A DNA stretch of 64,000 nt. It comes from an uncultured Bacteroidota bacterium (GTDB lineage: Bacteria > Bacteroidota > Bacteroidia > Bacteroidales > P3). A program made the translations under genes and the position numbers. The stretch spans positions 160,243 through 224,242 of the forward strand of contig CADAQX010000009.1 of the NCBI GenBank assembly GCA_902790215.1. The letters run 5' to 3'. A model generated the notes under the pieces. The model did no database searches. It saw nothing but the letters and a program-made list of their open reading frames with translations, and was not told the DNA's origin. Positions 21,852-63,010 of the stretch are shown here, in pieces (the stretch's first letter is position 1; every line of letters begins with the position of its first letter).

Positions 21852-22031
21852 ATGAAAGAAAGCAATTTCAAGTGCAATTACGAATCACCCGTCGTAGAGG
21901 TGTTGAAAGCCCGCGTGGAGGCTGGTTATCAGTCTTCCAATGTGCAAAGTGGAGGAAACGCCAACACCACCCGCTACGGTGAAGGCAGCTGGGACACACC
22001 CAGTGGTAACCCTAACGCACGGTACAATTAA
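21852..22031 (+). CDS. small peptide with YxxPxVE...VExGYQxS core
   Basis: The 59-residue peptide (start MKESNFK) has YESPVVEVLKARVEAGYQSS at residues 10-29 and then a Gly/Asn/Ser-rich polar tail. The same core occurs in the peptides at 57535 and 62843, each directly before a fimbrillin-like lipoprotein. Small proteins of this general look are common in Bacteroidales; I know of no established function. It has no signal peptide. The lipoprotein gene follows 18 bases later. An upstream in-frame start at 21816 is less likely because it adds non-conserved residues. Confidence 0.8.
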   Translation: MKESNFKCNYESPVVEVLKARVEAGYQSSNVQSGGNANTTRYGEGSWDTPSGNPNARYN

Positions 22032-22049
22032 CCTTTAACCTTACTTGCC

Positions 22050-23828
22050 ATGAAGAAGATTCTATTCATTTCTACTCTCATTGCAACCCTGCTGCTGGCC
22101 TCCAGTTGCCAGAAAGAGCAGGAATTAGTCACCCTCGGGGCAGTCATCAACCAGCCCTCCAAGACCTATATCGACAATCGCTACCCCTGTTGGAGCGAGG
22201 GCGACCAAGTGTATGTCAACAATGCCGCCTACACCGTCTCTGCCATCTCCGGCTCGTCGGCACAGATAGCCGATGTGGTGGGTGACGACTCTTATCGTGC
22301 CCTCTTCCCCGCCTCGTTGGTGACACCGGGCAGCAACATCACCAACAGTGCTACCATACCCGTCACCCTGCCAGCCACGCAGCGGTACCAAGTGGTGAAT
22401 GGCCACCAACGCGTAGACGCTCCCATGGGGGCCTACACCGAGGGCAGCACACTGCAGTTCTACAACCTCTGCTCCATTGTGCATGTGGTAGTCAACAACA
22501 ACACGGGCAGTGACATGACACTCGGTAGCCTGAAAATGGAAGCAGCCAACGCCTATCTGAGCGGCACAGGCACTGCCTCAATCAACGGCACTTTGAACGA
22601 CGGCATCACCCTCTCCTCCGATGCCTCCCACTCCGTTTCGCTCCGCATAGCCGGACCCACCAGCGTCACCCTCGCTGCCGGAGCCCAATCCACTTTCGAC
22701 ATCTACGTCCCCGCCTTCCCCACGGACAATGTCACCATCACCCTCTATACCACCAACGGCTACTACTACGAGCTGCCCAAGAACGGTGTAGCCCTCACCC
22801 CCAACACCTACACCACCGTCACCCTCAATGTCACCTCCCTCACCCAAGTCCTCGCCGCAGAGCTGGTGAATGGCTATACGTTTAAAAATGCCATTCCTGA
22901 CAATGCCACTTCGGTGGTTTTCGAATACAATAACGCTTCGACATCAAATACTATACTATCCACACCCGATTCCCCTGTCCCCATTTATGGTTACATAGAT
23001 GGGAATGTATGGCATGTATGTACTGCCGCCGATGCAATCAATGCCAACTCTGACTGTTCAAGTATGTTCTCCTCCAAATCGTCCCTAACCTCCATTGATT
23101 TTGGATCTGACTTCAACACTTCCAACGTGACGTATATGCTATATATGTTTGATGGTTGCTCCAGCCTGACCAGCCTCGACCTCTCCAACTTCAACACCGC
23201 CAACGTGACAAGTATGGGTGCGATGTTTGGCAATTGCCAAAGCCTGACCAGCCTTGACCTCTCCAACTTCAACACTTCGAATGTAACAAATATGCAGGTG
23301 ATGTTTAGCGGGTGTTACAGCCTGACAAGCCTTGACCTCTCCAACTTCAACACTTCCAGCGTGATGAATATGCCTTTTATGTTTGAGGGTTGCTCCAGTC
23401 TTACCAGTCTTGACCTCTCCAATTTCAACACCGAGAATGTAACGAGCATGAACGGTATGTTCGGAAAATGTAGCAGCCTGATAAGCCTTGACCTCTCCAA
23501 CTTCAACACCTCCAACGTGACGAGTATGAGAGGGATGTTTTCCAGGTGCATCAGTCTGACCAGCCTTGACCTCTCCAGTTTCAACACTGGCAATGTGACG
23601 CGAATGTATAATATGTTTGGCGGTTGCTCCAGCCTGACTAGCCTTAATCTATCCCACTTTGATATGAGTAGGGTTTTAGAGAAGTCATTCATGTGCCTCC
23701 TCCTTTCCACCACTTCAGGTTATTGTACTATCATTTGCCCAGCGGCAGTGCAGACGGAATTGGAGAATGGTACAGACCTACCCTCAAGCGGAGTTACTTT
23801 CACTTGGGTTAGACCCACATCCAAGTAA
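22050..23828 (+). CDS. fimbrillin-like lipoprotein with BspA-type DUF285 repeats
   Basis: The 592-residue protein has a signal peptide with lipobox LASSC (Cys20). Residues about 25-265 resemble the fimbrillin-like/Mfa2 N-terminal region (WSEGDQVYVN, ATIPVTLPATQRY, LQFYNLCSIVHVVV, YVPAFPTDNVTITLYT). From about 330 there are eight copies of a 24-25 residue unit (SLTSLDLSNFNTSNVT-M--MF), the DUF285/BspA-like repeat. It is presumably exposed on the outer membrane, with an adhesin-like role inferred. The repeats are nearly identical at DNA level, so recombination between them is likely. It is coupled to the small peptide upstream. Confidence 0.88.
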   Translation: MKKILFISTLIATLLLASSCQKEQELVTLGAVINQPSKTYIDNRYPCWSEGDQVYVNNAAYTVSAISGSSAQIADVVGDDSYRALFPASLVTPGSNITNSATIPVTLPATQRYQVVNGHQRVDAPMGAYTEGSTLQFYNLCSIVHVVVNNNTGSDMTLGSLKMEAANAYLSGTGTASINGTLNDGITLSSDASHSVSLRIAGPTSVTLAAGAQSTFDIYVPAFPTDNVTITLYTTNGYYYELPKNGVALTPNTYTTVTLNVTSLTQVLAAELVNGYTFKNAIPDNATSVVFEYNNASTSNTILSTPDSPVPIYGYIDGNVWHVCTAADAINANSDCSSMFSSKSSLTSIDFGSDFNTSNVTYMLYMFDGCSSLTSLDLSNFNTANVTSMGAMFGNCQSLTSLDLSNFNTSNVTNMQVMFSGCYSLTSLDLSNFNTSSVMNMPFMFEGCSSLTSLDLSNFNTENVTSMNGMFGKCSSLISLDLSNFNTSNVTSMRGMFSRCISLTSLDLSSFNTGNVTRMYNMFGGCSSLTSLNLSHFDMSRVLEKSFMCLLLSTTSGYCTIICPAAVQTELENGTDLPSSGVTFTWVRPTSK

Positions 23829-23979
23829 GGCAACTGCCATCTGTCTGCTATTGTCAGCCTATCCGTGCCGGAGGCACTGTATCCTATTAACCCCACACTA
23901 AGCGACCACAGAGAGTGCAGTGTGGGGTTGCATATCAACCCCATCTTGCGTGTCAACGACACGCTACAAAAACTTTATT

Positions 23980-24058
23980 CTCAACAATTTGCAAAGATTG
24001 CTCTCCCAAGAGAGCAAAAAATGCAAAATTTACTCTCCCGAGAGAACAATAATTATTG
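23980..24058. repeat. paired CTCTCCC(A/G)AGAG elements before ATPase gene
   Basis: TTGCTCTC CCAA GAGAGCAA and, about 17 bases later, CTCTCCCGAGAG form two adjacent small palindromes separated by ATGCAAAATTTA. An outer imperfect pair (CTCAACAATTTG with AATTATTGAG) encloses them. They lie just upstream of the ATPase gene at 24092. Confidence 0.75.
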
Positions 24059-24091
24059 AGTTTTGACGTTACCATTGTAAATTAAACGATT

Positions 24092-25291
24092 ATGGACGTA
24101 CTGGTATCACAATTTAAACGTCGGCTGACGAATATATCGTTAGATTTGATTAGAGAGTGCATTAACGAAGTGGCTTGGGATGAAAGGCTGTCAGCCATCA
24201 TAGGACCGCGCGGTGTAGGCAAGACCACGTTGATACTTCAGTATATAAAACAGCATTACGCCGATAGTCTTTCCGAAGTGCTTTATGCCACAGCCGAAAG
24301 TCTGTACTTCGCACAGAACACACTAGTGGACTTGGCGGAACGATTCGTGACAAATGGGGGAAAACATCTATTCTTAGACGAGATTCATCGTTATCAGAAC
24401 TGGAGTCGTGAAATAAAACTGATTTACGATACCTACCCCGAACTGAAGGTTACGATTAGCGGATCATCACTGCTTCAGATACTCAATTCGGAAGCTGACC
24501 TTTCTCGTCGTTGCATTTGGTATAATATGCAAGGGTTGTCTTTCCGCGAATTTCTTCGGTTTTATAAAGGAATCGACCTCCCAGTGTTCTCTTTCGACAA
24601 TATTATTCAAAAACCTGATGATGTATGTCGCAAAATCAATACATTGTGTCACCCTGTGCCATTGTTTCATGAATACCTTCAGGTAGGTTATTTCCCCTAC
24701 TTTTTAGAGGGCGAGAAAAGATACTATGAACGTGTGGGGAATGTGATAGACTATGTAATTGGCACAGAACTACCGATGGTATGCAAGGTGGAGACGGTGA
24801 ACGTTCGCAAGCTACAGATGCTGCTAAATGTAGTGGCTGGCCTTGTACCTTATGAACTTGATATTAGCAAAATTGCACTGATGCTACAGTCTTCGCGTAA
24901 TACGGTGATAACTTATCTTAGGTATTTGTCCATGTCGAAAATTATCAATTTGCTCTATTCGGACATCCAATCGCTAAAGAAAGTACAGAAACCCGATAAA
25001 ATGTATTTGGAAAACCCCAATATGCTATATGCCTTGTGTCTGGAAAAAGCGAATATAGGTACCGCCAGAGAGACCTTTGTTGTTAATCAATTGGGATACC
25101 AACATCGGATAGAGTACAGCAAGAAAAACGGTGATTTCAAAATCGATGGGAAATATGTGTTTGAAGTGGGTGGAGCTACTAAGAACTTTGACCAGGTGGC
25201 CAACATACCTGACTCATACATCTTAGCAGATGACATAGAATGGCCTGTAGGAAACAAACTGCCACTATGGCTTGTCGGACTGTTGTACTGA
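24092..25291 (+). CDS. AAA_14/DUF4143-type ATPase
   Basis: The 399-residue protein carries Walker A GPRGVGKTT (about 38-46), Walker B KHLFLDEIH and a SGSS sensor-like segment. A helical middle with LSFREFLRF follows, and the C-terminus contains KKNGDFKIDGKYVFEVGGATKN, which resembles the nuclease-like domain of DUF4143 proteins. Such ATPases are frequent and often multicopy in Bacteroidales, with no settled role. It has lower GC than the core genes around it, suggesting acquisition. No consensus promoter is visible; small palindromes lie upstream. Confidence 0.82.
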   Translation: MDVLVSQFKRRLTNISLDLIRECINEVAWDERLSAIIGPRGVGKTTLILQYIKQHYADSLSEVLYATAESLYFAQNTLVDLAERFVTNGGKHLFLDEIHRYQNWSREIKLIYDTYPELKVTISGSSLLQILNSEADLSRRCIWYNMQGLSFREFLRFYKGIDLPVFSFDNIIQKPDDVCRKINTLCHPVPLFHEYLQVGYFPYFLEGEKRYYERVGNVIDYVIGTELPMVCKVETVNVRKLQMLLNVVAGLVPYELDISKIALMLQSSRNTVITYLRYLSMSKIINLLYSDIQSLKKVQKPDKMYLENPNMLYALCLEKANIGTARETFVVNQLGYQHRIEYSKKNGDFKIDGKYVFEVGGATKNFDQVANIPDSYILADDIEWPVGNKLPLWLVGLLY

Positions 25292-25426
25292 AGAGAATTG
25301 TGATTAGGTAACCACTAATATTTACCCCAAAAAGGAGCATTCGTGATAATCAAATACTGAGTATTAAACACAAATTGCCATGTAATGACTATAAATTCAT
25401 GGCAATTAATGATAATTAGTGTTTAA
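25292..25426. other. AT-rich spacer after ATPase gene
   Basis: No gene is seen. The stretch contains a diffuse inverted repeat (CATGTAATGAC...GTCATTA-like words) but nothing I can name. Confidence 0.4.
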
Positions 25427-25673
25427 CCCAAATCGGTCATTAGGCAGACTTTTCAATTATTCTCTTTTTTCAGGTCCGTTTATGCCCTATCAGTATTTCT
25501 TTATGTTCTATGATGTTACTTGGCTCGGCGGAGCAAGCGAGCTTTCTCTGCTCTCAAAAATAACGTTGCTCCCATTCGGTCGCGACGTCACTTTACGCAG
25601 CTTTCGCCAGCGCTGCGGCCAATCTGCTCGAAACAAATACTCACCTGCCATAAACCCTAATGACCGATTGGGG
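25427..25673. repeat. 247-bp island bounded by 18-bp inverted repeats
   Basis: CCCAAATCGGTCATTAGG (25427-25444) and CCTAATGACCGATTGGGG (25656-25673) are reverse complements with one mismatch. The interior is non-coding or holds a doubtful 90-residue frame. The same word, with G for A in TCATTAGG, forms the hairpin after asnS (54197-54222). It could be a miniature mobile element or a duplicated regulatory hairpin. Confidence 0.6.
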
Positions 25674-25715
25674 ATAAAATACTCAATATAATGCTCTACA
25701 TCTGAATATTATTTG

Positions 25716-25723
25716 TATATTTG
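25716..25723 (+). promoter_or_regulatory. -7 element of second BspA-like gene
   Basis: TATATTTG followed by CACC, 21 bases before the ATG at 25745. No good upstream TTTG is seen at the expected distance. Confidence 0.6.
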
Positions 25724-25744
25724 CACCCACAAACACACATCATT

Positions 25745-26893
25745 ATGAAAAACAGGATTATTCTTAATGCCCTGATACTAGTCACAATGGCTATGCTGGC
25801 AGTAGGTTGCCAGAAAGACTATGAAACCCTCCACGCCGAATTGGTTGACGGTGAGACTTTCAATAGTACCATTCCAGCGAATGCCACATCTGTGGTATTT
25901 GAATGCAACAATTCCTATCACAGAAACCGTATTAATCTTTCTTCACCTTCATCGCCAGTTCCTGTCTATGGACATTTAGAAGGCGAAGTGTGGTATGTCA
26001 CCACCCGGGCCGGTTTCCTTGATGCCAATCCCAATAGTAGAAAGATGTTCTGTAATTGTTCAAAGTTGACCTCCATCAAGTTTGGCAATGGCTTCAACAC
26101 CTCCAATGTAGAACACATGGATGCCATGTTTTATGGCTGCAGTGGCTTGACGAGCCTTGATGTCTCCAATTTCAACACCTCCAATGTCGTCTCCATGTCC
26201 TATGCTGTAGATTCAGTTTTTTACTCTACTGCCCCAGATGGACGACGATACAAATGGTACAATAAATATATGCTAATGGGTATGTTCGCCGGTTGTAGCA
26301 GTCTCACAAGTCTCGACCTTTCCAGTTTCAACACCTCCCAAGTGACCGACATGCGTGGACTCTTTGATGGGTGTAAGAATCTGACAAGCCTAAATGTATC
26401 CAACTTCAACACCTCGAATGTAAAACACATGGATGCCATGTTTAGGGGTTGCAGCAGATTGACAAGCCTTGACCTCTCCAATTTCAACACCTCCAATGTC
26501 GTTTCCATGAGCTATAGGGTTAAGGTATTCCGCAACAACGGTTCTTGGGGACAGAGGCCAGGCAGTGGTTATAATTGGGATGGCGGCATGTTTATGAATT
26601 GCAATAGTTTGACAAGCCTCGACCTTTCCAATTTCAACACTTCGAATGTGACCTGTATGTGTAAGCTGTTCTGCAATTGCACCCATTTGACATTCCTCGA
26701 CCTCTCCAATTTCGATATGACCTTGACAAATGGTTTCTCCCAGAAGCAGGATATGTGTAGTGGCTTATCTACATCTTCGGGAGTCTGCACCATCGTTTGT
26801 ACAGAGTCGGTACAAAACAGTCTCTTAGATAATAATGGTTACATTACAGGTATTCCCGTCGACGAGGTGACGTTCACCTGGGTGAGACCTTAG
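25745..26893 (+). CDS. BspA-like lipoprotein with DUF285 repeats
   Basis: The 382-residue protein has lipobox LAVGC (Cys22) and seven DUF285 units of the form LTSLDLSNFNTSNV. Unlike the gene at 22050 it lacks the fimbrillin-like N-terminal region and has no small peptide gene ahead. Two repeats are interrupted directly after SNVVSMSY by different insertions of about 30 residues, rich in Tyr, Trp, Arg and Gly. The start at 25745 is chosen because earlier in-frame residues overlap the promoter. It ends in VTFTWVRP, the same C-terminal motif as the 22050 protein, so the two are paralogues. Confidence 0.88.
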   Translation: MKNRIILNALILVTMAMLAVGCQKDYETLHAELVDGETFNSTIPANATSVVFECNNSYHRNRINLSSPSSPVPVYGHLEGEVWYVTTRAGFLDANPNSRKMFCNCSKLTSIKFGNGFNTSNVEHMDAMFYGCSGLTSLDVSNFNTSNVVSMSYAVDSVFYSTAPDGRRYKWYNKYMLMGMFAGCSSLTSLDLSSFNTSQVTDMRGLFDGCKNLTSLNVSNFNTSNVKHMDAMFRGCSRLTSLDLSNFNTSNVVSMSYRVKVFRNNGSWGQRPGSGYNWDGGMFMNCNSLTSLDLSNFNTSNVTCMCKLFCNCTHLTFLDLSNFDMTLTNGFSQKQDMCSGLSTSSGVCTIVCTESVQNSLLDNNGYITGIPVDEVTFTWVRP

Positions 26894-26896
26894 GGA

Positions 26897-27016
26897 TTAT
26901 TGCTTGAATGCTTGAATGTGTAAATGCTTGAATGAATGCATGAATGCTTGATTGTGTAAATGCTTGAGTGAAAAATACTCAGACAATCAAGCAATTAGAC
27001 AATCAAGCAATAATTG
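26897..27016. repeat. foldback word array before the AlkD-like gene
   Basis: Left words GCTTGAATG and GTGTAAAT (to about 26970) are followed by a short core and right words CAATCAAGCAATTAGA repeated twice. Left and right words are largely complementary, so the array can fold back. It ends in or just before the AlkD-like gene. Confidence 0.75.
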
Positions 27017-27039
27017 ACGTTGTTTACCGTTATAGGGGC

Positions 27040-27747
27040 ATGAATAGGTTGATGAATGCTATTGTGGCACTTCGCGATGAGGCACAAGCTGCACACTTGG
27101 CCCGTTTCTTCAAGACGGGACCGGGAGAGTACGGCGAGGGCGACCGTTTCCTTGGCATCAAGGTGCCGGTCACCCGCTCGGTGGTGAAGGAACACTGGAA
27201 AGGGTGCAACTGGGATGACCTTGAGGAGTGTCTGGCTTCGGAGTGGCACGAAGTGCGGCTGGCTGGCCTGCTGGCTTTGGTCCAGCGTTTTCACCACGCC
27301 AAAAGAGACCCCGCCGAACAGCAAAAGTGTGTAGATTTTTACCTCAACCACCTTTCGGCAGTGAACAATTGGGATTTGGTTGACCTCTCGTGCTATGAAA
27401 TCCTCGGCACGTGGTACCTCACCCACGACGCCACACTGCTTTACACATTAGCCCGCGAGGGCAAGACCATTTGGGAACAGCGTATAGGCATTGTCAGCAC
27501 CATGCAGTTTCTACGCCACGGGCGCTTGGACGACACCTACGCCATTGCCGACATCCTGCTTCACCACCCCCACGACCTTATCCACAAAGCCGTTGGCTGG
27601 CTGCTGCGCGAGGCCGGCAAGCGCGACACCCAGCGCCTGCAGCAGTATCTCGACACCCGCTGCACCGCCATGCCTCGCACCATGCTGCGCTATGCCATTG
27701 AGAAATTCCCTCCCGACATCAGGCAGTTCTATCTTAGACAAAAATAA
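27040..27747 (+). CDS. AlkD-like DNA alkylation repair protein
   Basis: This 235-residue all-helical protein belongs to the AlkD/HEAT-repeat DNA glycosylase family that removes bulky alkylated purines. Typical segments are FLGIKVPVTRSVVKEHW, HEVRLAGLLALV, NNWDLVDLSCYEILG and LIHKAVGWLLREAGKRD. The frame extends upstream to a GTG at 26968, but those residues are encoded by the foldback word array, so MNRLMNAIVAL at 27040 (or 27052) is preferred. The YbjQ gene follows 20 bases later. Confidence 0.85.
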   Translation: MNRLMNAIVALRDEAQAAHLARFFKTGPGEYGEGDRFLGIKVPVTRSVVKEHWKGCNWDDLEECLASEWHEVRLAGLLALVQRFHHAKRDPAEQQKCVDFYLNHLSAVNNWDLVDLSCYEILGTWYLTHDATLLYTLAREGKTIWEQRIGIVSTMQFLRHGRLDDTYAIADILLHHPHDLIHKAVGWLLREAGKRDTQRLQQYLDTRCTAMPRTMLRYAIEKFPPDIRQFYLRQK

Positions 27748-27767
27748 CAATATAATACATTAAAGTT

Positions 27768-28079
27768 ATGAAGATTATCACAGTCGAAACCCTCCAGGGT
27801 TACAATTACGAAGAGCTGGGCGTTGTGACCGGCAGCACCATCCAGTCCAAGAACTTTGTCAGCGACTTCGGTCAGGGCATAAAGAGCATAGTGGGTGGCG
27901 AACTCAAATCCTACACCTCCATGATGGAGAAAGCCCGCAACCAGGCCACGCAGCGTATGGTTGACCAAGCCGTCAAGATGGGCGCCGATGCCATCATCGG
28001 CGTGCGCTACACCACCTCCAGCATCATGGCGCAGGCCGCTGAAGTGCTGGTGTATGGCACCGCCGTCCGATACAAATAG
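27768..28079 (+). CDS. YbjQ/UPF0145 family protein
   Basis: This 103-residue protein has the YbjQ pattern: an N-terminal strand with VTGSTIQSKNFVSDFGQGIKSIVGGE, then RNQATQRMVDQAVKMGADAIIGVRY and a final VYGTAVRY. The family forms pentamers and is sometimes called heavy-metal binding, but no function is proven. Length is normal. It lies 20 bases after the AlkD-like gene and 62 bases before the PBP2 gene, which has its own promoter. Confidence 0.88.
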   Translation: MKIITVETLQGYNYEELGVVTGSTIQSKNFVSDFGQGIKSIVGGELKSYTSMMEKARNQATQRMVDQAVKMGADAIIGVRYTTSSIMAQAAEVLVYGTAVRYK

Positions 28080-28110
28080 ACAGGAATCCTTTCATGTGGA
28101 TTTTTTTTTG

Positions 28111-28118
28111 TATTTTTG
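28111..28118 (+). promoter_or_regulatory. -7 element of mrdA-rodA
   Basis: TATTTTTG followed by CA lies 23 bases before the PBP2 start codon at 28142. It is preceded by a T-rich tract, and no distinct TTTG can be assigned. Confidence 0.55.
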
Positions 28119-28141
28119 CAAGTTAAAACTAACATGCAAAA

Positions 28142-29992: not shown

Positions 29993-31266
29993 TGCAAGCC
30001 AGACAACTTCCCTCCACAGAAAAGAAACGCTACGACTGGGTGCCCATACTGCTGTACTTAGGCATTGTCCTGTTTGGCTGGCTCAACATCTACGCAGCCT
30101 GCTACGACGAAATGCATGCATCGGTCTTCGACTTCTCCCGCCAGCACGGCAAACAGCTGCTATGGATGGGAATCGCTTTCTTGATGGCCATCTGTGTACT
30201 GCTCATCCATCCACGGGTATTCTCCAGCAGTGCCTATGTCATTTACGGCATTGTGCTCATACTGCTGGTTGTCACCCTCTTTATAGGGACGGTAACCCAT
30301 GGAGGACAGTCGTGGATAGACTTCGGTGCCTTCAAATTCCAGCCGTCGGAGTTCGCCAAATTTGCCACCGCCCTTGCATTGGCCAAGACCATCAGTGCCA
30401 TCGACATAGACCTCACCCTGCCGCGCACCCGCATCACCTTGGCTCTCATGGTGCTCATCCCTGCCGGGCTCATCCTGCTGCAGCACGACACCGGTTCGGC
30501 CCTCGTCTTCCTGGCATTCCTCCTCCCCTTCTTCCGCGAGGGGCTTTCCCACTACATCCTGCTGGTGGGTGTGCTGGCCATCATCCTCTTTGTCTCCGCC
30601 CTGCTCATCAACAAGTTCATCCTCATGGGCATCATCCTGGCGCTATGCCTGTTCTATCTCTTCGTGTGGCTCTCCAAGCGCACCTCGCGCACCTATTGGC
30701 ACACGGCAGCCTTCTTTGTGGTATGCTGCCTCTTCACCCTTTCGGTCGACTTCACCTTCGAACACATACTCGAAACCCACCAGCGCAACCGCATCTACGT
30801 CCTCCTCGGCAAAGTGGAAGACCCCAAGGGCATAGGCTACAACGTCGACCAGGCCAAGATTGCCATCGGCTCGGGAGGCCTGTTCGGAAAAGGATTCCTC
30901 AACGGCACCATCACCAAAGCCGACTTCGTCCCGGAACAGGAAACCGACTTCATCTTCTGCACCGTGGGCGAGGAATGGGGCTTTCTCGGCAGCATCGTCC
31001 TGCTGGCGGCCTACGTCTATCTGCTCGTCTACCTGATAGGCATGGCGGAGCGACAACGCTCCACTTTTTCTCGATTCTACGGCTATAGCGTGGCCGGCAT
31101 CCTCTTCTTCCACTTCTTCATCAATATCGGCATGGTGCTGGGCCTCGTCCCTGTCATCGGCATACCCCTGCCCTTCTTCAGCTACGGCGGTTCATCCCTC
31201 ATCGCCTTCACCTTGCTGCTCTTCATCTTCATCCGTCAGGATGCCGACAAAAACGCACTGATATGA
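29992..31266 (+). CDS. rodA: rod-shape SEDS peptidoglycan glycosyltransferase RodA
   Basis: The 424-residue multispanning protein is a SEDS family polymerase working with PBP2. It contains WIDFGAFKFQPSEFAKFA, LLQHDTGSALVF (with the catalytic-region Asp), QAKIAIGSGGLFGKGFLNG and the C-terminal GIPLPFFSYGGSSL. About ten membrane segments are apparent. It overlaps mrdA by one base. Confidence 0.94.
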   Translation: MQARQLPSTEKKRYDWVPILLYLGIVLFGWLNIYAACYDEMHASVFDFSRQHGKQLLWMGIAFLMAICVLLIHPRVFSSSAYVIYGIVLILLVVTLFIGTVTHGGQSWIDFGAFKFQPSEFAKFATALALAKTISAIDIDLTLPRTRITLALMVLIPAGLILLQHDTGSALVFLAFLLPFFREGLSHYILLVGVLAIILFVSALLINKFILMGIILALCLFYLFVWLSKRTSRTYWHTAAFFVVCCLFTLSVDFTFEHILETHQRNRIYVLLGKVEDPKGIGYNVDQAKIAIGSGGLFGKGFLNGTITKADFVPEQETDFIFCTVGEEWGFLGSIVLLAAYVYLLVYLIGMAERQRSTFSRFYGYSVAGILFFHFFINIGMVLGLVPVIGIPLPFFSYGGSSLIAFTLLLFIFIRQDADKNALI

Positions 31267-31372: not shown

Positions 31373-31384
31373 AAAAAAACTGAC

Positions 31385-32626: not shown

Positions 32627-32628
32627 TC

Positions 32629-33351: not shown

Positions 33352-33365
33352 AAGAAATTCGAAAA

Positions 33366-52729: not shown

Positions 52730-52756
52730 AAATTGAAAAAAGCAAAATATTGAGAA

Positions 52757-54160: not shown

Positions 54161-54189
54161 TAGAGTTTGAGGGATTTAAAATAATAGAG

Positions 54190-56421: not shown

Positions 56422-56912
56422 AGCTCGTTGACTATTTCTTCTGTCAGTCCCTGCTCCACAGAGGAGAAGTCGCGCGAAGCGGCATAATCCTTAAACCGTG
56501 AAAAGCTCTGCTCAAAGTCGGCCTTGCTGTCAAACCGGTTGCTAAAGGAGACCTTGATGGTGATGGTGAAACGATTCGTCGCCACGTTGTCGTCGCTGCC
56601 GATGGAGGAGGCCCGCGTGCTGTAATCGGTTATCTCACCTGATATCTGCAGATCGCCGTCGTCGTTGATGACATTGAGACTTGTCTGCGTCGAAAACATC
56701 TGCTGCAAACCGTCATAGAGTTTCTGGCTAAGCTGAGGGTTGACTGTCGAGGCATAGTTGGGGAACTGCTTAATAGAAATGGTCTTGGCCTCTGGAGGGA
56801 TGGAGGCACCGGTAAACGAGTAGCCGCCCGAACAGGACATCAGTCCCGACACCACTACAGCAAGCATCAGCCGCAGGATAGCAAACGGTTTTATGTGGCG
56901 CTTGTCAAACAT
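56382..56912 (-). CDS. lptE: LPS-assembly lipoprotein LptE (Bacteroidota type)
   Basis: The 176-residue protein has a lipobox-like GLMSC (about Cys27) and the LptE/PF04390 pattern: GYSFTGASIPPEAKTISIKQFPN, LQQMFSTQTSLNVIN, DLQISGEITDYS and RFTITIKVSF. LptE plugs the LptD barrel in LPS export. MFDKRHI at 56912 is preferred, overlapping the upstream small gene by eight bases. A start further upstream would run through that gene. Confidence 0.85.
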   Translation of the reverse strand: MFDKRHIKPFAILRLMLAVVVSGLMSCSGGYSFTGASIPPEAKTISIKQFPNYASTVNPQLSQKLYDGLQQMFSTQTSLNVINDDGDLQISGEITDYSTRASSIGSDDNVATNRFTITIKVSFSNRFDSKADFEQSFSRFKDYAASRDFSSVEQGLTEEIVNELCEDIFNKSVVNW

Positions 56913-57075
56913 TCTGCGAGTCGTAGTCAATGTGTATTTCATCCTGGAGCTGCCACAGCATATAGGAGGATTGCTGCTCCATATACTCCAATATCGAGAC
57001 TTTATGGGTGAGGTCGTTGATGGCAGAGATTTCGGAAACAATGTCGTCTATCTTTTTCTTTAGGTTGTTATCCAT
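56905..57075 (-). CDS. small coiled-coil hypothetical protein
   Basis: The 56-residue protein (MDNNLKKKIDDIVSEISAIN...) is mostly helical and acidic, with no signal peptide. MDNN at 57075 is chosen because it is the first start after the -7 element at 57122. Its end overlaps the lptE start by eight bases, so the two are coupled. I do not recognise a family. Confidence 0.6.
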   Translation of the reverse strand: MDNNLKKKIDDIVSEISAINDLTHKVSILEYMEQQSSYMLWQLQDEIHIDYDSQNV

Positions 57076-57121
57076 TGGTTTATAGGTGTTATGCGAATTT
57101 TGAATTATCTTTTTCCGTCTG

Positions 57122-57129
57122 CAAAGATA
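57122..57129 (-). promoter_or_regulatory. -7 element of lptE operon
   Basis: TATCTTTG followed by C on the minus strand, about 47 bases before the small gene at 57075. It is divergent from the promoter at 57183. Confidence 0.6.
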
Positions 57130-57182
57130 CGACTTTTTCGTAAACCTCAACAAAAAAAAGCCTATATGTTAGAGAAAAGTCG

Positions 57183-57466
57183 TATATTTGCACCGTCAAT
57201 CACCCGAACCCTTTGGCGGGTAAGCGGGTGGGTGACAGGACATAACAAAAAAGACGCTGAAACGGCGTTTTATCTGCGGCGTACGAATCTCGCAAATTCA
57301 AATCCAACCGCACGGTAAGACAAAGTCGGCGCCTATTGGTGTGATATATACATTTCTTGTATATGGTCACAGCGTGGGCTCGGCATTGTTTATCCTCGGT
57401 TGGAAGGCATGCGAGAGCCTCGTACGCGGGATAGACGATGAGTTTGATACCCGCGCTTCTTTTTTT
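57183..57466 (+). promoter_or_regulatory. promoter and long structured leader with terminator, upstream of peptide gene
   Basis: TATATTTG (57183-57190) begins a leader of about 340 bases. It holds a strong hairpin GTCAATCACCCG (57195-57206) with CGGGTGGGTGAC (57225-57236), a GACGC...GCGTTTT hairpin near 57252, a TGTGA...TCACA/ATATAC hairpin near 57340, a GGCTC...GAGCC stem near 57372, and finally CGCGGG (57425-57430) with CCCGCG (57450-57455) followed by a T run. The last looks like an intrinsic terminator before the peptide gene at 57535. Confidence 0.6.
57425..57466 (+). terminator. terminator-like hairpin before peptide gene
   Basis: CGCGGG/CCCGCG with an unpaired 19-base loop and TTCTTTTTTT after it. 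Genes for the peptide and lipoprotein lie downstream, so read-through or an alternative fold must occur if they are expressed from the promoter at 57183. Confidence 0.65.
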
Positions 57467-57534
57467 ATGCCCCCTTGACCATCAAACTTATTCTGGTGCA
57501 GGTATCCGCCAGCAACAAAAACTCTAACAAAACA

Positions 57535-57705
57535 ATGAAAGAGAATTTGAACCGCAAACGGGAGTACGACGCTCCTATGGTAGAACTGATTGAGGCCCGC
57601 GTCGAAAAGGGCTTTCAACAAAGCGGCACCAGCCCCATAATTGGAGAAGGAACTGGCGAGACTCTTTCTGAGACTGGCACTGGCGACAACGCATTATTCA
57701 CTTAA
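57535..57705 (+). CDS. small peptide with YxxPxVE...VExGFQxS core
   Basis: The 56-residue peptide carries YDAPMVELIEARVEKGFQQS at 11-30 and a Gly/Thr-rich tail ending NALFT. MKENLNR at 57535 is the start; the frame continues upstream through the leader. The lipoprotein gene follows 16 bases later. It is homologous to the peptides at 21852 and 62843. Confidence 0.8.
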   Translation: MKENLNRKREYDAPMVELIEARVEKGFQQSGTSPIIGEGTGETLSETGTGDNALFT

Positions 57706-57721
57706 TCAAACAGCAAGCCCT

Positions 57722-59344
57722 ATGAAGAAGATTACACTTTTGGGAGTGGCTTTGGCCACGATTGTCTCGGTTGCGACGGTGTCGTGCCAGAAGGACAAAA
57801 TAACCATCACGGAGTTCACCGCCACGATGGAGAACTGCAACGACGAAAACGGCAAGGTGATGCTGGACGGCAACGTGCTGCGCTGGACTGACGGCGACCA
57901 GATTGCCGTATGGGGTACCGATGGTAAGGGTATCTACACTACCACCAACACGGGGACGTATGTCACCACGTTCACCTTCACCGAAGGTGAAGACCCTGGC
58001 GACCCCAACTACACCGCTATCTATCCTGCCAGTTGGGCGCAGCGGTCGGCAATAATGTTCCTGCCCCCGGTACAGACCAGCCATGACGGGCGGTTGGAGA
58101 CGTTCCCGATGATGGCAAAGTCCAGTAGCAGCGAACTGGTGTTCAAGAATTTGTGCGGCGCATTGCGGTTGCGGCTCCAAGCCAGCGGCAAGAGTGTCAC
58201 GGGTATTGAGTTAGTAGCCAATCAAAACATTTGGGGCTCGTACCGAATCGACTACAACAGCGGCAATCCTACATTGAGCCATTACGACAATGGTAGCAAA
58301 CAATTGTTGCTCTCCATCACTACGCCACAAAACATCTCTACTCAGGCAAAGGATTTCTACATTGCCCTGCCTCCCGCAACCTACGGCGAGGGCTTCAGCA
58401 TCAGAATCTATACCAGCGACGGTAGCGTCTGTACCAAGACAATTACCGAAGGGCATAGCTTCACCATCGTGCGTAGCGGTATCTTCACCATTACGCTGAA
58501 CAACGACAACTTGCAATTCAAACCCAATGCGGGATTGCTGAGCGGTGAGTTTTCGGTGAGTTCGACTCAGAAAGTCCGTTTCTCTCAGGGAAAACTCTTG
58601 TTCACAGGTTTTGGCACTCACGCTGTAGCCACGGGTGGCACAGCCGAAGGCACGTGGATGTTTGGTGACTGGTGGAACGGTAATTACGGCGATGCCTATA
58701 CCACGAAATGGATTGGCACGTTTGCTTGGGGGACAAGCGGCTGGAACAGTGGCGCGAACGGTTATTTGCCTTATCAATGTGGTCAAGGTTGGGCATCACA
58801 AGATTACATGCCAGGAGGGGATGCCGATAACAATCTGACAGGGTCATACGCGTATGCCGACTGGGGCGTGTACAACGCCATTTTCAATGGTGGTAACCAA
58901 CCCGGGTTGTGGCGCACATTGTCGGCAGATGAATGGGACTATTTGCTTAATCAACGAACAGGACATTCAGTGAAATGGGGCGTTGCTGAAGTTGTGGGGA
59001 AAGGAGCTGGACTAGTAATCCTGCCTGATAGATTTAACCTTCCCGAAGGACTTGATTTTAATGAAGGACTAGGGCTTAATGGTGAAAATAGCTTAAACAG
59101 ATATAGCGATGAACAATGGGCACAGATGGAAGCTGCAGGTGCTGTGATATTAACAACTAATGGAGACTTTGGAAACTATTGGACAACGACTGCTGCTGAT
59201 GCTACTTCATGGGGAGAACAACGTGCGTTTGTACTCCGTGTTTCTGGTCGTGATGTGGGTATTCTCGAATGTAAAAGAAGAGGAGAAGGAGTGAATAATA
59301 ATGACCCGTATACAACTGTCCGCTTGGTCAGAGACGTACAATAA
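57722..59344 (+). CDS. fimbrillin-like lipoprotein with FISUMP-type C-terminal domain
   Basis: The 540-residue protein has lipobox ATVSC (Cys22). Residues about 30-285 resemble the fimbrillin-like family (FTATMEN, LRWTDGDQIAVWG, TAIYPASWA, LVFKNLCGALRLRL, FYIALPPATYG). The C-terminal half (FSVSSTQKVRFSQGKLLFTG, LWRTLSADEWDYLLNQR, TTVRLVRDV) matches the FISUMP-type paralogous domain. It is presumably surface-exposed. GC falls in the last ~400 bases, suggesting a different origin for that end. Confidence 0.85.
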   Translation: MKKITLLGVALATIVSVATVSCQKDKITITEFTATMENCNDENGKVMLDGNVLRWTDGDQIAVWGTDGKGIYTTTNTGTYVTTFTFTEGEDPGDPNYTAIYPASWAQRSAIMFLPPVQTSHDGRLETFPMMAKSSSSELVFKNLCGALRLRLQASGKSVTGIELVANQNIWGSYRIDYNSGNPTLSHYDNGSKQLLLSITTPQNISTQAKDFYIALPPATYGEGFSIRIYTSDGSVCTKTITEGHSFTIVRSGIFTITLNNDNLQFKPNAGLLSGEFSVSSTQKVRFSQGKLLFTGFGTHAVATGGTAEGTWMFGDWWNGNYGDAYTTKWIGTFAWGTSGWNSGANGYLPYQCGQGWASQDYMPGGDADNNLTGSYAYADWGVYNAIFNGGNQPGLWRTLSADEWDYLLNQRTGHSVKWGVAEVVGKGAGLVILPDRFNLPEGLDFNEGLGLNGENSLNRYSDEQWAQMEAAGAVILTTNGDFGNYWTTTAADATSWGEQRAFVLRVSGRDVGILECKRRGEGVNNNDPYTTVRLVRDVQ

Positions 59345-59413
59345 CTGTTAGGAAAATTAATTTTTCATACCCTGTTACAGGCAGCCCTATCGCCGGTGAC
59401 CCTAGCAAAAAAG

Positions 59414-59440
59414 AAGTCCCCGCCACCACGGCGGGGACTT
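59414..59440 (+). terminator. intrinsic terminator after the FISUMP lipoprotein gene
   Basis: AAGTCCCCGC (59414-59423) pairs perfectly with GCGGGGACTT (59431-59440) around a 7-base loop, followed by TCCTTTTT. Confidence 0.9.
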
Positions 59441-59689
59441 TCCTTTTTCAATGGCGAAACACCTCTCCGCAGGCATACAGCGGCACATTTTTCATCCACT
59501 CTTTAGTCATAATACATATAAACAACACTCTATGAGGATGTAACCAGCCAATTATGCATTTTTCGTGCCGTATAACGAAACAGAACTTACATTTTTTCTA
59601 CCTTTCAGTATCTGCTTTTCGTGGTGCAACATAAGTAAGTTTGTCCATAAATAATTTGCCCGACTTGTCTTGAGGCAGGTTTTTCACCC
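59441..59689. other. spacer with no recognised feature
   Basis: No gene, promoter or repeat is recognised between the terminator and the foldback element. Confidence 0.4.
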
Positions 59690-59870
59690 CCAACAGCCTG
59701 AAAGGCCAGCAGCCCTTTAGCCCAAAGCATCGCCTTGGGTAAAGGATGGATGTAAGTGTCGCCCTGAAAGGGCAAAAGAAACAAGCTTTTGCCCTTTCAG
59801 GGCGTTAGGGATGACTGCCATATTACATAGGGCGATGCCCCGAGCTATTTGCTTTTGGCCTTTCAGACCG
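59690..59870. repeat. foldback element with perfect 19-bp central palindrome
   Basis: CGCCCTGAAAGGGCAAAAG (59760-59778) and its complement (59786-59804) frame a 7-base loop. Outside, CCTGAAAGGCCAGCAG...AAGCATCGCC on the left pairs imperfectly with GGCGATGCCC...GGCCTTTCAG on the right, so the unit is nested. It resembles the miniature foldback elements scattered in Bacteroidota. Confidence 0.75.
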
Positions 59871-59965
59871 TTAATGTCATTAAGATTCAGTCTTGTAAAG
59901 GCCATGTACCATGTTAAATCAGTGCGAAAAAACTTGTCAAACTTCAGTATAATGAAAAAAAGTCG

Positions 59966-59973
59966 TACCTTTG
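59966..59973 (+). promoter_or_regulatory. -7 element of the methyltransferase-like orphan gene
   Basis: TACCTTTG followed by CA, 9 bases before the ATG at 59983. The message would be nearly leaderless. Confidence 0.5.
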
Positions 59974-59982
59974 CAGACCATT

Positions 59983-60465
59983 ATGACACGGTTGGAATAT
60001 TGGATAATGGCTGACACGCAGTACAGGATACACTCGCCTTTTGTGTTCGACATGTACCGCAAGGTGCTGTTTGCCGAGGTGGACAAGTCCCTGCGCGACC
60101 GCATGGCCGAAGGAATGCCCGAGGAGGCGGTGGCCGCCATGCAAACGGCAGGACGACGCGAGCGGGCTTACCACGAGATTGTGTATAAGCTGCGCGACCA
60201 CTACGGCCTGAAGGTGATGTGCTACGACGGCGACGAGGCGGTGCTGTGTCCAGAATCAGGACAGGCAAGCAACCCCAAGACCGGACAGCCACTCATTGAG
60301 GGTGAGATGAAAGTGGTGTGCCGACCGCATAAGTGCCATGCCCGTGAACTGCGCTGGCAGGCTCAGCAGGGCAACGCAAAGTATAATGTGAGCATCGACA
60401 TGTACGACGTGGGGCTACTGATGAACTGTTCCCGAATGCACCGACAGCATTTTCTGCTTAAATGA
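59983..60465 (+). CDS. hypothetical protein with methyltransferase-associated N-terminal motif
   Basis: The 160-residue protein begins MTRLEYWIMADTQYRIHSPFVFDMYRKVLF. The YRIHSPFVFDMY stretch is the N-terminal motif of many Bacteroidota class I methyltransferases, but no SAM-binding core follows; the rest contains a CRPHKCHARELRWQAQQGN segment. It may be a truncated or repurposed relative. It lies 32 bases upstream of gldD and is probably co-transcribed. Confidence 0.6.
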   Translation: MTRLEYWIMADTQYRIHSPFVFDMYRKVLFAEVDKSLRDRMAEGMPEEAVAAMQTAGRRERAYHEIVYKLRDHYGLKVMCYDGDEAVLCPESGQASNPKTGQPLIEGEMKVVCRPHKCHARELRWQAQQGNAKYNVSIDMYDVGLLMNCSRMHRQHFLLK

Positions 60466-60497
60466 ATTGAATAATAAATACCTCAAACGGATAACAC

Positions 60498-61082
60498 ATG
60501 AAGACAAGAAGTGTTTTTCTCTGGATATGCCTGGCAGTGCTGGCAGCGGCCTGCTCTGACGGCAACGAAACTCCCAAGCCACAGGCTTACCTGCGCATAG
60601 ACATGCCGCCGCATGCCTACTCGGTGTGCGACACAATGGCGTTGCCATTCACCTTCGAGCTGAGCAACCTGGCCGAAGTGCAGTGGAAGAAGAACCTGCC
60701 GCGCGACAAGTGGTTCACCATCGCCTACCCGAAGTACAAGGGTTATGTGTTTATGACCTACAAGGCCATGAACGGTGTGAGAGACCTGCGGGCACAGATT
60801 GACACGTCGTATAAGTTTGTGGAGGGGCACTTCTCCTTCTCGTCGGGAATTGACGAGAACAAGTTTGTGGACCGTGAGCACCATCTTTCGGGTACCACCT
60901 ACCACCTCAAAGGACAGAATGTGGCCAGCACCTACCAGTTTTGGGTGTCGGACAGCAACCGGCACTTTATCCGCGGCGCACTGTATATCGACTGCACGCC
61001 GAACAATGATTCATTAGCGCCGGTATTGAATTATATACAAGATGACATTGACCACCTGATAGAGACGATACGATGGAGATAA
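60498..61082 (+). CDS. gldD: gliding motility lipoprotein GldD
   Basis: The 194-residue protein has lipobox LAAAC (Cys19) and GldD signatures: YLRIDMPPHAYSVCD, WFTIAYPKYKGYVFMTYKAM, GQNVASTYQFWVSDSNRHFIRGALYI and a C-terminal DDIDHLIETIRW. GldD is needed for gliding in Flavobacteriia and is retained more widely in Bacteroidota, including non-gliders, where its role is unclear. The next gene overlaps its end by ten bases. Confidence 0.9.
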   Translation: MKTRSVFLWICLAVLAAACSDGNETPKPQAYLRIDMPPHAYSVCDTMALPFTFELSNLAEVQWKKNLPRDKWFTIAYPKYKGYVFMTYKAMNGVRDLRAQIDTSYKFVEGHFSFSSGIDENKFVDREHHLSGTTYHLKGQNVASTYQFWVSDSNRHFIRGALYIDCTPNNDSLAPVLNYIQDDIDHLIETIRWR

Positions 61083-62215
61083 GAAAAATCTTAGTCTTCG
61101 TTACGGCACTGCTTACAGGTATTGGCGTGTGGGCTCAGTCGTTCACCGAACGCGAGGTGCAGTTGCAAATTGTGCAGGAATATGAGCACGACACCATGCA
61201 ACTGGCGGGAACGCTGACTATGCCCATAGGTGTTACCGAGAAGGTTCCTGCCGTGATTCTCATCACTGGTTCGGGAGCACAGAACCGCGACGAGGAGATT
61301 ATGGGCCACAAGCCCTTTAAGGTGATAGCCGAATACCTGTCGGCACGAGGCTATGCCGTATTGCGGTGCGACGACCGAGGTGTGGGAGAATCAACAGGCG
61401 ACATAGCACATGCCACCACGCTTGACTTTGCACATGATATCGATCATCTGTTAATGTATTTGCAGTCGCCCAGGTCAGGCTTGGACATAGACCCTAACCG
61501 CATCTACCTCTTCGGACACAGCGAAGGTACCACAGTAGCCGCTATTGTGGCGGCCAAGAATCGCTATACCCTGAACACTGTCGCGGGTGTGGCAATGCTG
61601 GGTGGCGCTGCTGTAGACGGTAAAACATTGCTATTGCAGCAGAACGAGGCTATATTCCGATTACAGGGGTTGGAGGACAGCCTAATCGTGAGGCGATTGG
61701 CCTGTATGCGCGAGCTGTTTGCCGTGTGCGACACGCTCCACTTAAGCAAGGGCGCGGACACCGTGAAGACTATTAATCTGGCCTTCCGTCCTCTGTTTAA
61801 AAAATACTCGACTGGCCTCACCAAAGAGCAGAAACAGCGGTGTGGGCTGACCACAGGGGATTGCTATGGTTGGGCATTGACCGTTGCCACCCCGTGGATG
61901 CGTACATTCCTGTCCCTCGACCCAGCGGAGTATATCGCCCAGATGCACTGCCCACTGCTGGCCATAGGGGGAGAAAAAGACTGCCAAGTACCGGCCGACG
62001 CCAACCTTTCGGTCATTGAGAACATCTGCGAGGCAAACGGCATCCCCTCTCGAATTGTACGGCTGCCAAATGTCAACCATCTGGGGCAGATGTGCCACAC
62101 AGGTGCAGTAGACGAATACGCCACCCTCGGACAGGCTCCCGCTGAATGTGTATTGAGTGCTTTGGTTCAATGGCTTGACTCCATTGGCAGTCAAAGCGAA
62201 CGTACCAAAAACTGA
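61073..62215 (+). CDS. secreted alpha/beta hydrolase
   Basis: The 380-residue protein has a signal peptide (about 1-22, GVWAQ). The alpha/beta hydrolase core shows an oxyanion-hole ITGSGAQNRDE and DDRGVGEST, nucleophile Ser150 in GHSEG, a late Asp in KDCQVPAD and His in NVNHLGQ. The substrate is unknown; S9-like peptidase or esterase relatives in Bacteroidota have similar sequences. It overlaps gldD by ten bases. Confidence 0.85.
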   Translation: MEIRKILVFVTALLTGIGVWAQSFTEREVQLQIVQEYEHDTMQLAGTLTMPIGVTEKVPAVILITGSGAQNRDEEIMGHKPFKVIAEYLSARGYAVLRCDDRGVGESTGDIAHATTLDFAHDIDHLLMYLQSPRSGLDIDPNRIYLFGHSEGTTVAAIVAAKNRYTLNTVAGVAMLGGAAVDGKTLLLQQNEAIFRLQGLEDSLIVRRLACMRELFAVCDTLHLSKGADTVKTINLAFRPLFKKYSTGLTKEQKQRCGLTTGDCYGWALTVATPWMRTFLSLDPAEYIAQMHCPLLAIGGEKDCQVPADANLSVIENICEANGIPSRIVRLPNVNHLGQMCHTGAVDEYATLGQAPAECVLSALVQWLDSIGSQSERTKN

Positions 62216-62601
62216 TACAGCTCCCTCTTTCTTTCGACCTGTTCTGTACCTTCGCTGTAGGTTCGCTCTGCCTTCGCTGTAGGTTCGCTTTCTGGAGCGA
62301 CCCAACAACGACTGCAACGGGACTCTACTACGGGGTTGAATACACCCAACGCGTATTGAGCTACAACGCTACAGTGCTACAGTTCCATTATCGGATACCC
62401 TGTTTTCGAACTGTAGCACCGTAACAACTGTAGCAGACAATTGTCTTTTCCTGATTTTGGTTGACAGTTTTTTGCCTTTTTCCCTGATGCTGTTGCCACT
62501 CGCTGTACTGGAAATGTTGACTATTTCCTGACATCGTTGACAGAATTCCTGAAAAGGTTGACAACTGCATGTGTCTTTTCCTGATTTTGGTTTAATTTTT
62601 T
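62216..62601. repeat. repeat-rich spacer
   Basis: It contains CCTTCGCTGTAGGTTCGCT twice, a 12-bp inverted repeat GTGCTACAGTTC/GAACTGTAGCAC near 62370-62417, tandem GTTGAC-(about 15)-TTCCTGA words near 62515-62560 and TGTCTTTTCCTGATTTTGG twice (62451 and 62573). No gene is seen. Confidence 0.65.
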
Positions 62602-62632
62602 TTTGCTATATCGGGGAAATTGTGTATATTTG
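62602..62632 (+). promoter_or_regulatory. promoter of the third peptide-lipoprotein module
   Basis: TTTG at 62602-62605, a 19-base spacer and TATATTTG at 62625-62632, an excellent consensus match. Confidence 0.8.
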
Positions 62633-62639
62633 CATACAT

Positions 62640-62842
62640 GAATTTCTGAGACAATGAAATACAATAGACTATATTTCAGCATATTACCCCCCCTATAATC
62701 CGAGACATTAAGTCGGAAAGTGGAGGAGCATACATCGTCTCTATTAACAATCGTTTATACCCTTACGCCTTGCGGACAGACGTAGGGATGGGTCTTTATT
62801 GTCATTGAAAATTAACAACAATAATCACAAAACGTAATTACT
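62640..62842 (+). promoter_or_regulatory. leader of the third peptide-lipoprotein module
   Basis: The leader of about 200 bases holds CCGA/TCGG and GAGAC/GTCTC complementary pairs and a hairpin CCCTTACG (62760-62767) with CGTAGGG (62781-62787), followed by a weak T-rich stretch. The T run is poorer than in the other two modules, so termination here is uncertain. Confidence 0.45.
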
Positions 62843-63010
62843 ATGATTGAAAAAAGGAAAGAGGAGTACACGGCTCCTACGGTAGAATTGATTGAAGCCC
62901 ACGTAGAAAAAGGTTTTCAGACAAGCGTGACCGAAGACCAGCTACAAAGCAGAAGCATGGAAGGCGTTACAAATAGCGGCAACAATTACACCAATGAACT
63001 GTTCAGCTAA
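62843..63010 (+). CDS. small peptide with YxxPxVE...VExGFQxS core
   Basis: The 55-residue peptide (MIEKRKEEYTAPTVELIEAH...) has YTAPTVELIEAHVEKGFQTS at 9-28 and a polar tail ending NELFS. It lies 27 bases before the lipoprotein gene and aligns over its N-terminal half with the peptides at 21852 and 57535. Confidence 0.8.
   Translation: MIEKRKEEYTAPTVELIEAHVEKGFQTSVTEDQLQSRSMEGVTNSGNNYTNELFS

Follow-up and report, generated by a model that had tools for sequence, protein, structure and literature searches.

What is the role of the short open reading frames (ORFs) that stand directly before lipoprotein genes in a contig of an uncultured Bacteroidales bacterium? The stretch of DNA analysed, hereafter the window, comprises 64,000 nt (assembly GCA_902790215.1, contig CADAQX010000009.1; G000:C9:160243-224242) of a genome of 2.98 Mb in 40 contigs. 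In the labels used, G000 is the window genome, the other G numbers are sampled genomes, L numbers are loci and W is a window position. An initial annotation of the window described three homologous ORFs of 55–59 residues at 21852, 57535 and 62843, lacking a signal peptide and followed 16–27 bases later by a lipoprotein gene. The ORFs were present as described: they encode 59, 56 and 55 aa, their stop codons lie 18, 16 and 27 nt before the lipoprotein ATG, and no hydrophobic signal stretch was visible in them (by eye, no predictor). The partner lipoproteins have clear lipoboxes. The peptides are very probably precursors of a pathway for ribosomally synthesized and post-translationally modified peptides (RiPPs) resembling that of the linear polyphosphorylated peptides (LPP), matured in trans and each paired with a surface lipoprotein. 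This reading is well supported by genomic evidence: the existence of a family, its pairing, its co-occurrence with pathway genes, shared gene runs, conserved residues and a coding-type substitution pattern. The genes concerned are the following (Y+19 is the position relative to the conserved Tyr).

21852..22031 (+): precursor-like peptide 1, 59 aa; leader-like part 21852-21926, to Gly25; tail 21927-22028; border putative
21936-21938 (+): codon of the conserved Ser (Y+19) of peptide 1
22050..23828 (+): partner lipoprotein 1; N-terminal domain common to the partners (fimbrillin-like), then DUF285 repeats (PF03382, 224 bits)
57535..57705 (+): precursor-like peptide 2, 56 aa; leader-like part 57535-57612, to Gly26; tail 57613-57702; border putative
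57622-57624 (+): codon of the conserved Ser of peptide 2
57722..59344 (+): partner lipoprotein 2 (W57722); fimbrillin-like N-terminal domain; PF13149 at 14 bits, cut-off 27; beta-rich AF2 model
62843..63010 (+): precursor-like peptide 3, 55 aa; leader-like part 62843-62914, to Gly24; tail 62915-63007; border putative
62924-62926 (+): codon of the conserved Ser of peptide 3
63038..64000 (+): partner lipoprotein 3, truncated by the window end; common N-terminal domain, then a FISUMP-like stretch (by eye)

A search of the genome with a single peptide yielded 13 matches (E ≤ 10, the weakest at 0.48), a result not due to chance, and a profile built from 13 peptides detected 20 copies (weakest E 0.018), three of them, the window peptides, being the only matches inside the window. 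In 19 of the 20 cases, the ORF directly 3′ of the copy carries an SPII lipoprotein signal. The exception is a peptide that starts 3 nt after a fimbrillin-like gene (L041). The own-genome partners have an N-terminal domain in common, and a profile of this domain gave 26 matches in the genome, 22 of them at E<1e-33. A peptide was found directly upstream of 19 of these 22 strong matches (not at C6:28839, C6:30500 and C3:1569), a reverse count that is partly circular and leans towards pairing, since the profile was built from the same 19 partners later counted. One of the four weaker matches has a peptide after the gene and three have none seen.

The search was extended to 101 family, 393 order and 296 phylum-sample genomes, all of them relatives of the window from the same phylum. 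Up to 23 precursor matches were found in one genome of the family sample. Pooling gave 191 records, from which L135 and L149 were removed as false; the resulting 189 peptides are best matches, mostly from one genus, rather than a random sample. The relatives named by sequence comprise 18 loci of metagenome-assembled genomes of Bacteroidales, several labeled goat or sheep forestomach. Automatic sorting by gene context placed 141 of the 189 peptides ≤150 nt 5′ of a lipoprotein gene and 26 ≤120 nt after a gene; 10 were solitary, eight preceded another gene and four lay at a contig end. With coordinates as called, the peptide-to-gene gap has a median of 27 nt and a range of -35 to 138 nt, the order being reversed at some loci. 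Two members of the after-gene group (L234 and L150) also have an apparent lipoprotein, 25 and 13 nt downstream, that the rule missed, and four solitary peptides (L066, L178, L179, L229) have one 176–291 nt downstream. When ten proteins encoded upstream of after-gene peptides were compared with Pfam, Por_Secre_tail (sorting by the type IX secretion system) scored above the cut-off in L093 and below it in L103, L105 and L113, with no such match in the other six; others appear fimbrillin-like at their C-terminal end (by eye). At G091:C58:95200-101922 (L207, L213), the peptide-lipoprotein unit occurs three times in tandem at a spacing of about 1.85 kb, and L241 has two units. At L072 and L074, the gene downstream of a similar peptide, at a distance of 59 and 52 nt, codes not for a lipoprotein but for a membrane protein resembling glycosyl-phosphate transferases (WecA/MraY-like by eye).

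No match to NCBIfam at E ≤ 1 was obtained with the three window peptides and seven relatives; with the same 10 peptides, Pfam returned only PF07935 (SSV1_ORF_D-335), below the cut-off and in two of the 10. The three window peptides and three relatives gave one match to PHROGs (E = 0.34). In the open-access literature, nothing was found on the peptide family, a fimbrillin-paired RiPP or a Bacteroidota LPP beyond PMC13381572. The accessible parts of reports on RiPP mining in Bacteroidales (PMC10352776) and on lasso clusters of rumen bacteria (PMC7533575) do not mention the family, those of the latter discussing HPr kinase, PqqD and nucleotidyltransferase for Butyrivibrio and Lachnospira; the peptide-family terms do not occur in PMC7470986 or PMC12710340.

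The conserved half of the peptides reads Y-x-x-P-x-(V/I/L)...E-x-G-(F/Y/I/L)-x-x-S. Among 186 unique peptides, the Tyr is present in 100%, Pro at +3 in 98%, V/I/L at +5 in 93%, Glu at +13 in 98%, Gly at +15 in 95%, F/Y/I/L at +16 in 96% and Ser at Y+19 in 90%, percentages that are partly high by construction, since the set was obtained by profile. One member of the set, L099, is included in edited form. YxxA replaces YxxP in only three of the 186 (L084, L086, L087), which belong to genus g5. High proportions of G, S, D, N, E and T characterize the tail, with 0.9% K and 0.1% C. While the conserved head described by the initial annotation was confirmed, the tail proved not to be simply variable, an aromatic residue being present within its last three positions in 166 of the 186 peptides (mean 53 and maximum 73 in 1000 tail shuffles). 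The ratio of nonsynonymous to synonymous substitutions (dN/dS) came to 0.18 in the head and 0.14 in the tail (93 pairs with ≥70% identity; choosing pairs by protein identity lowers both values). Given this coding-type substitution over head and tail, the tail appears to be kept under constraint as protein. Divergence of the head follows that of the partner's N-terminal 200 residues with a rank correlation of 0.46 (144 pairs); the corresponding value for the tail was 0.12, or 0.05 after correction for the head, 22 of 300 permutations being as high. A separate observation is that L182, L184, L188, L190 and their relatives have an identical tail (ending ...SSGEVHGGSDFD) and different heads, which suggests recombination between copies or a strong constraint on the tail.

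The own genome contains one PqqD-type protein above the Pfam cut-off, a stand-alone RiPP recognition element (RRE; G000:C33), plus one weak match. In the family sample, the peptide was detected in 33 of 101 genomes and the RRE in 31, all within those 33 (p=5.5e-24; this and the other co-occurrence p values are hypergeometric and ignore kinship). The two agreed in 99 of 101 genomes, 31 having both and 68 neither. G080 and G085, the only sampled genomes of the same genus without the peptide, also lack the RRE, and within this genus alone p=0.002. In the order sample, 23 of 393 genomes had the peptide (E ≤ 0.01) and 60 the RRE, with an overlap of 20 (p=2.8e-15); with the peptide threshold at E ≤ 0.05, 25 of 32 genomes had the RRE, and with the RRE at E ≤ 1e-10, 17 of 28 genomes were among the 23 with the peptide. 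Further co-occurrence p values were 4.1e-17 and 7e-18. The 23 genomes represent 13 families, and in 11 of these at least one peptide genome has the RRE. An earlier, narrower core profile had found 18 genomes, 15 of them with the RRE; its match in G328 was false, the true peptide of that genome being found later. Matches to the core profile occurred in three of the 296 phylum-sample genomes, including the own genome and G490. The latter, from outside the order, has six peptide matches, a seventh peptide beside an RRE, and three RREs.

Next to the RRE gene of the own genome lie genes for a P-loop protein, putatively a kinase of the HprK type, and, in an ORF that also encodes a VanZ domain, for a putative S26 peptidase of the SipW kind. 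In the 12 other genus loci listed, the RRE is succeeded by a kinase-like ORF and then, where the stretch extends far enough, by an S26-like one. The Pfam assignments above the cut-off were PqqD in the own genome and G119, NTP_transf_5 in G119, G328 and G490, and ABC_tran in G119. The kinase P-loop FLGxSGTGKST is kept in 16 ORFs, with weak HprK_rel_A matches below the cut-off. The S26 pattern G-x-S-(M/L)-x-P...HR...GD was found in 28 ORF stretches, the Ser-His spacing being 37–42 in 27 of them (39 in LppS, the LPP peptidase), and the G119 protein gave a sub-threshold match to signal peptidase I (34.4 vs 51.85 bits). The search against PDB returned nothing for the own kinase and one unrelated weak match for the G119 peptidase. 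Three genomes have the peptide and the enzymes in same-strand gene runs, which, judging from strand and spacing, are probably operons. The run of G328 (L385) consists of peptide, lipoprotein, kinase, S26 peptidase, RRE, NTP_transf_5 and ABC exporter (the last by eye), and that of G119 (L339) of peptide, kinase, S26, RRE, NTP transferase and ABC, with no lipoprotein. G490 has a peptide-lipoprotein-RRE-NTP and a peptide-lipoprotein-RRE-kinase run (L386, L389). In G138 (L342), a protein with Mfa_like_1 and Fib_succ_major precedes RRE, NTP and ABC genes (the last two by eye), the known peptide of this genome being on another contig. In several genomes, thus, the pathway locus itself includes a lipoprotein, beyond the dispersed copies. 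Some RRE clusters (L341 in G356, L388 in G490) lie inside apparent polysaccharide export/glycosyltransferase loci (by eye).

The accessible text of PMC13381572 describes LPP (May 2026) as a RiPP family, represented by LppA/K/B/S/D/N of Paenibacillus alginolyticus, with a SpI-like peptidase, a discrete RRE, an HprK-like kinase, an NTP transferase and an MsbA-like exporter. Its precursors have 35–200 aa, a conserved YxxPxVLxHQxIxFETxxS and variable C-termini; leader residues Y-16 and P-13 are bound by D70 and N33 of the RRE, LppK phosphorylates core Ser3 and LppS cuts after T-1. The discussion there calls LPP restricted to Bacillota, the peptidase set being 'predominantly' from Bacillota. As far as that text goes, the gene kinds here are alike: a discrete RRE, a putative HprK-like kinase, a putative SipW-like peptidase and, in G119 and G328, an NTP transferase and an MsbA-like exporter (in G328 the latter by eye), with no cyclase in the five G119 cluster proteins scanned. 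Also alike are the conserved N-terminal YxxPxV half with a highly variable C-terminus, a conserved Ser three or four residues past the likely cut, and an apparent polysaccharide-locus setting (L341 and L388, by eye; for LPP, in Bacilli). At the RRE positions that align with the two ligand-binding residues of LppB, Asn is found in 43/45 and Asp in 45/45 sequences, the equivalence of these positions to LppB N33 and D70 being deduced from homology and the alignment with TfuB1, not from LppB itself. The differences are that the host is a member of Bacteroidota, not Bacillota; that one genome can have up to 23 precursor matches, in the own genome mainly remote from the enzyme genes, vs one to three within the cluster in LPP; and that they are regularly paired with surface lipoproteins.

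A Y-x-x-P-x-L leader motif occupies positions -17 to -12 in lasso peptides whose RRE is of the PqqD type (PMC10368454, accessible part). The paeninodin/Bsf systems, in the accessible parts of PMC8498205 and PMC10368454, have in common with the loci studied here a YxxPxL leader, a discrete PqqD-type RRE, an HprK-like kinase, a nucleotidyltransferase and an ABC exporter. The RRE here resembles that of a lasso system: TfuB1 (6jx3) was the sole PDB match of the RRE profile at E ≤ 0.01. The loci here differ from those systems in having an S26-type peptidase in place of the B2 peptidase; neither a macrolactam cyclase nor a B2 transglutaminase-like peptidase was found in the five G119 cluster proteins scanned (other clusters were inspected by eye, and the genomes were not searched). 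The gene set matches that of LPP, as far as the putative kinase and peptidase assignments go, and by analogy the system may work like it. We do not class it as an LPP member, because its precursor consensus differs and its RRE is a candidate for the LPP clade.

In the mechanism proposed, the N-terminal half would serve as a leader, Y-x-x-P-x-(V/I/L) docking as a strand on the stand-alone RRE. The HprK-like kinase encoded beside the RRE would phosphorylate the conserved Ser at Y+19, and the SipW-like S26 peptidase would cleave at or beside the G-(F/Y/I/L) bond. A cut after the Gly would give Y-16/P-13, as in LPP, while one a residue later would give Y-17/P-14/(V/L)-12, as in lasso leaders, and make the Ser core residue 3, as in LPP; the G(F/Y) step remarked on in the initial annotation coincides with the cut position of both kinds of leader. 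The Gly/Ser/Asp/Asn/Glu-rich tail with its aromatic end would then be released and, in clusters that include an MsbA-like ABC protein, exported by it. Our guess is that the mature peptide and the lipoprotein act jointly at the cell surface. As a tentative extension, which we hold to be possible but rather doubtful, some twenty phospho- or phosphoglyco-peptides per cell might be made from the single RRE/kinase/peptidase locus, each being loaded on, or plugging into, its own fimbrillin-like lipoprotein, so that a RiPP pathway would decorate adhesins. The processed-precursor layout of which the initial annotation was reminded is strongly supported by an RRE-type leader motif, co-occurrence with the RRE and shared runs with enzyme genes, the processing itself being what we infer from these.

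Several points weigh against this reading. RRE docking, phosphorylation, cleavage and export are all deduced from genomic data. The precursor consensus here, YxxPxVEVxExxVExGFAxS, has only YxxPxV in common with that given in the accessible text on LPP, the second half being different. The kinase assignment draws on the P-loop and on profile matches below threshold, and in 24 of 28 S26 stretches the Asp of the GD motif lies at +15, vs +25 in LppS. Neither NTP transferase nor ABC exporter was seen at the own RRE locus, the rest of the genome not having been searched for them, and the partner lipoprotein of G328 matches nothing in Pfam. In the order sample, 40 of the 60 RRE genomes lack a detected peptide at E ≤ 0.01, and 35 at E ≤ 0.05; some of them hold a similar enzyme cluster (by eye; L355, and L356, whose stretch shows no exporter), and their precursors may be too divergent for the profile, or the RREs may serve other pathways. 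Conversely, G005, G028, G265, G337 and G390 have the peptide and no RRE even at E ≤ 1, and G336, G370, G456 and G466 are also RRE-negative, with weak peptide matches (E 0.015–0.044). These cases are partly explained by a broken copy (that of G265 has no in-frame ATG/GTG/TTG upstream of the core and extends beyond the normal end), by genus g5, the sole source of YxxA peptides, which includes G005 and G028 (although G038, of the same genus, has both YxxA and the RRE), and by incompleteness (G337 and G390 are 65% and 89% complete).

Mfa_like_1 (PF13149), the fimbrillin-like family, was found above the cut-off in the G138 protein and in one of the two partners linked to an RRE in G490, and below it in the other G490 partner and in W57722; Pfam gave no match to it in window partners 1 and 3, and none at all in partner 3. 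The AF2 model of the first 321 aa of W57722 is beta-rich (mean pLDDT 76). The likeness to fimbrillin-like proteins thus concerns the N-terminal domain of the own-genome partners, with Pfam support in G490 and G138, and 'fimbrillin-like' is a fair but not firm name for it. The difference lies in the diverse C-terminal domains, such as DUF285 or Fib_succ_major, of the peptide partners.

Large size and diverse C-terminal domains are unusual for immunity proteins. These traits of the partners argue against the alternative that survives best, in which LPP-like precursors would give a bacteriocin-like or signaling peptide and the lipoprotein would be an immunity protein, receptor or sensor, not a carrier. 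Such a role would fit the patchy distribution, the many paralogs, the variable tails, the tandem units in G091 and the presence of an ABC exporter in the clusters of G119 and G328; yet the tail does not covary with the partner's N-terminal 200 residues, a comparison outside which the C-terminal domains lie. We consider this role improbable, though well ahead of the others. It is quite unlikely that the RRE and the peptides are co-inherited surface traits with no functional link. Both are concentrated in some genera, and the RRE ranking follows kinship because the RRE profile was drawn from the same genus; co-inheritance, however, does not account for the shared gene runs in G119, G328 and G490, the joint absence from G080 and G085 within the genus, the agreement in 11 of 13 families or a leader motif of the RRE-bound kind.

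The initial annotation had equally considered a chaperone or regulatory peptide, a reading that was not supported. A cytosolic chaperone or export pilot, whose shared head would address the export machinery and whose tail would be partner-specific, would agree with the 141 of 189 peptides lying just 5′ of a lipoprotein gene and with the covariation of head and partner. It is the tail, however, that hardly tracks the partner's N-terminal domain; some peptides come after other genes or are solitary, and co-occurrence with the RRE is not predicted, all of which makes this function very unlikely. Least likely of all is a cis-acting leader peptide or upstream ORF whose translation controls the downstream gene: it would suit the position of the short ORF, close 5′ of the lipoprotein gene, and the long 5′ leader, which is folded at two of the three loci tested in the window, but the substitution pattern is of the coding type over the whole peptide, the gaps are variable, the order is reversed at some loci and the RRE co-occurrence is left unexplained. 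Gene order, tail-partner covariation and substitution pattern led to the rejection of both as leading explanations.

If the peptides are indeed LPP-like precursors, the pathway extends beyond Bacillota, and precursors scattered away from their enzymes would be missed by cluster-based RiPP mining. The regular lipoprotein partner with a fimbrillin-like domain would then be a concrete handle on function in Bacteroidales. What is new here is that a recently described RiPP kind, so far reported from Bacillota, would be tied to surface proteins of Bacteroidales.

Upstream of each window peptide there is an element that we take to be a -7 box of the Bacteroidota type:

21550..21557 (+): TATATTTG box, 294 nt 5′ of peptide 1
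57183..57190 (+): TATATTTG box, 344 nt 5′ of peptide 2; strongly folded leader after the box
62625..62632 (+): TATATTTG box, 210 nt 5′ of peptide 3

A TAnnTTTG box was present ≤350 nt upstream in 16 of the 20 own-genome loci, with 2.67 expected from mononucleotide shuffling; the box of peptide 2 falls outside this count, its locus being one of the four scored without a box. These boxes make it probable that the peptide gene opens a transcript of its own, which also covers the surface lipoprotein gene. A sigma-70-type scan of two 5′ leaders gave nothing convincing above shuffles, and a strict terminator scan of two leaders found none.

The 5′ leader of peptide 2 (57170-57534) has a strong predicted fold (-136 kcal/mol, z -7.25 vs mononucleotide shuffles), and L010 has a similar leader. 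Folding z was -4.0 for part of the leader of peptide 1 (21590-21830) and only -0.8 for the leader of peptide 3 (62660-62842). A long-loop hairpin followed by a T-run was seen by eye in several leaders (W57435-57475, W21775-21815, L015, L018), which makes attenuation possible. A permissive lipobox pattern was matched by nine of the 52 genes called in the window, three of these being the partners and at least one false by eye; with the genome-wide profile, no family peptide was found for other lipoprotein genes of the window, such as those at 25745-26893 (+) and 7091-7852 (-). The single Rfam match in the window at gathering thresholds was a tRNA gene, at 20884-20955 (+).

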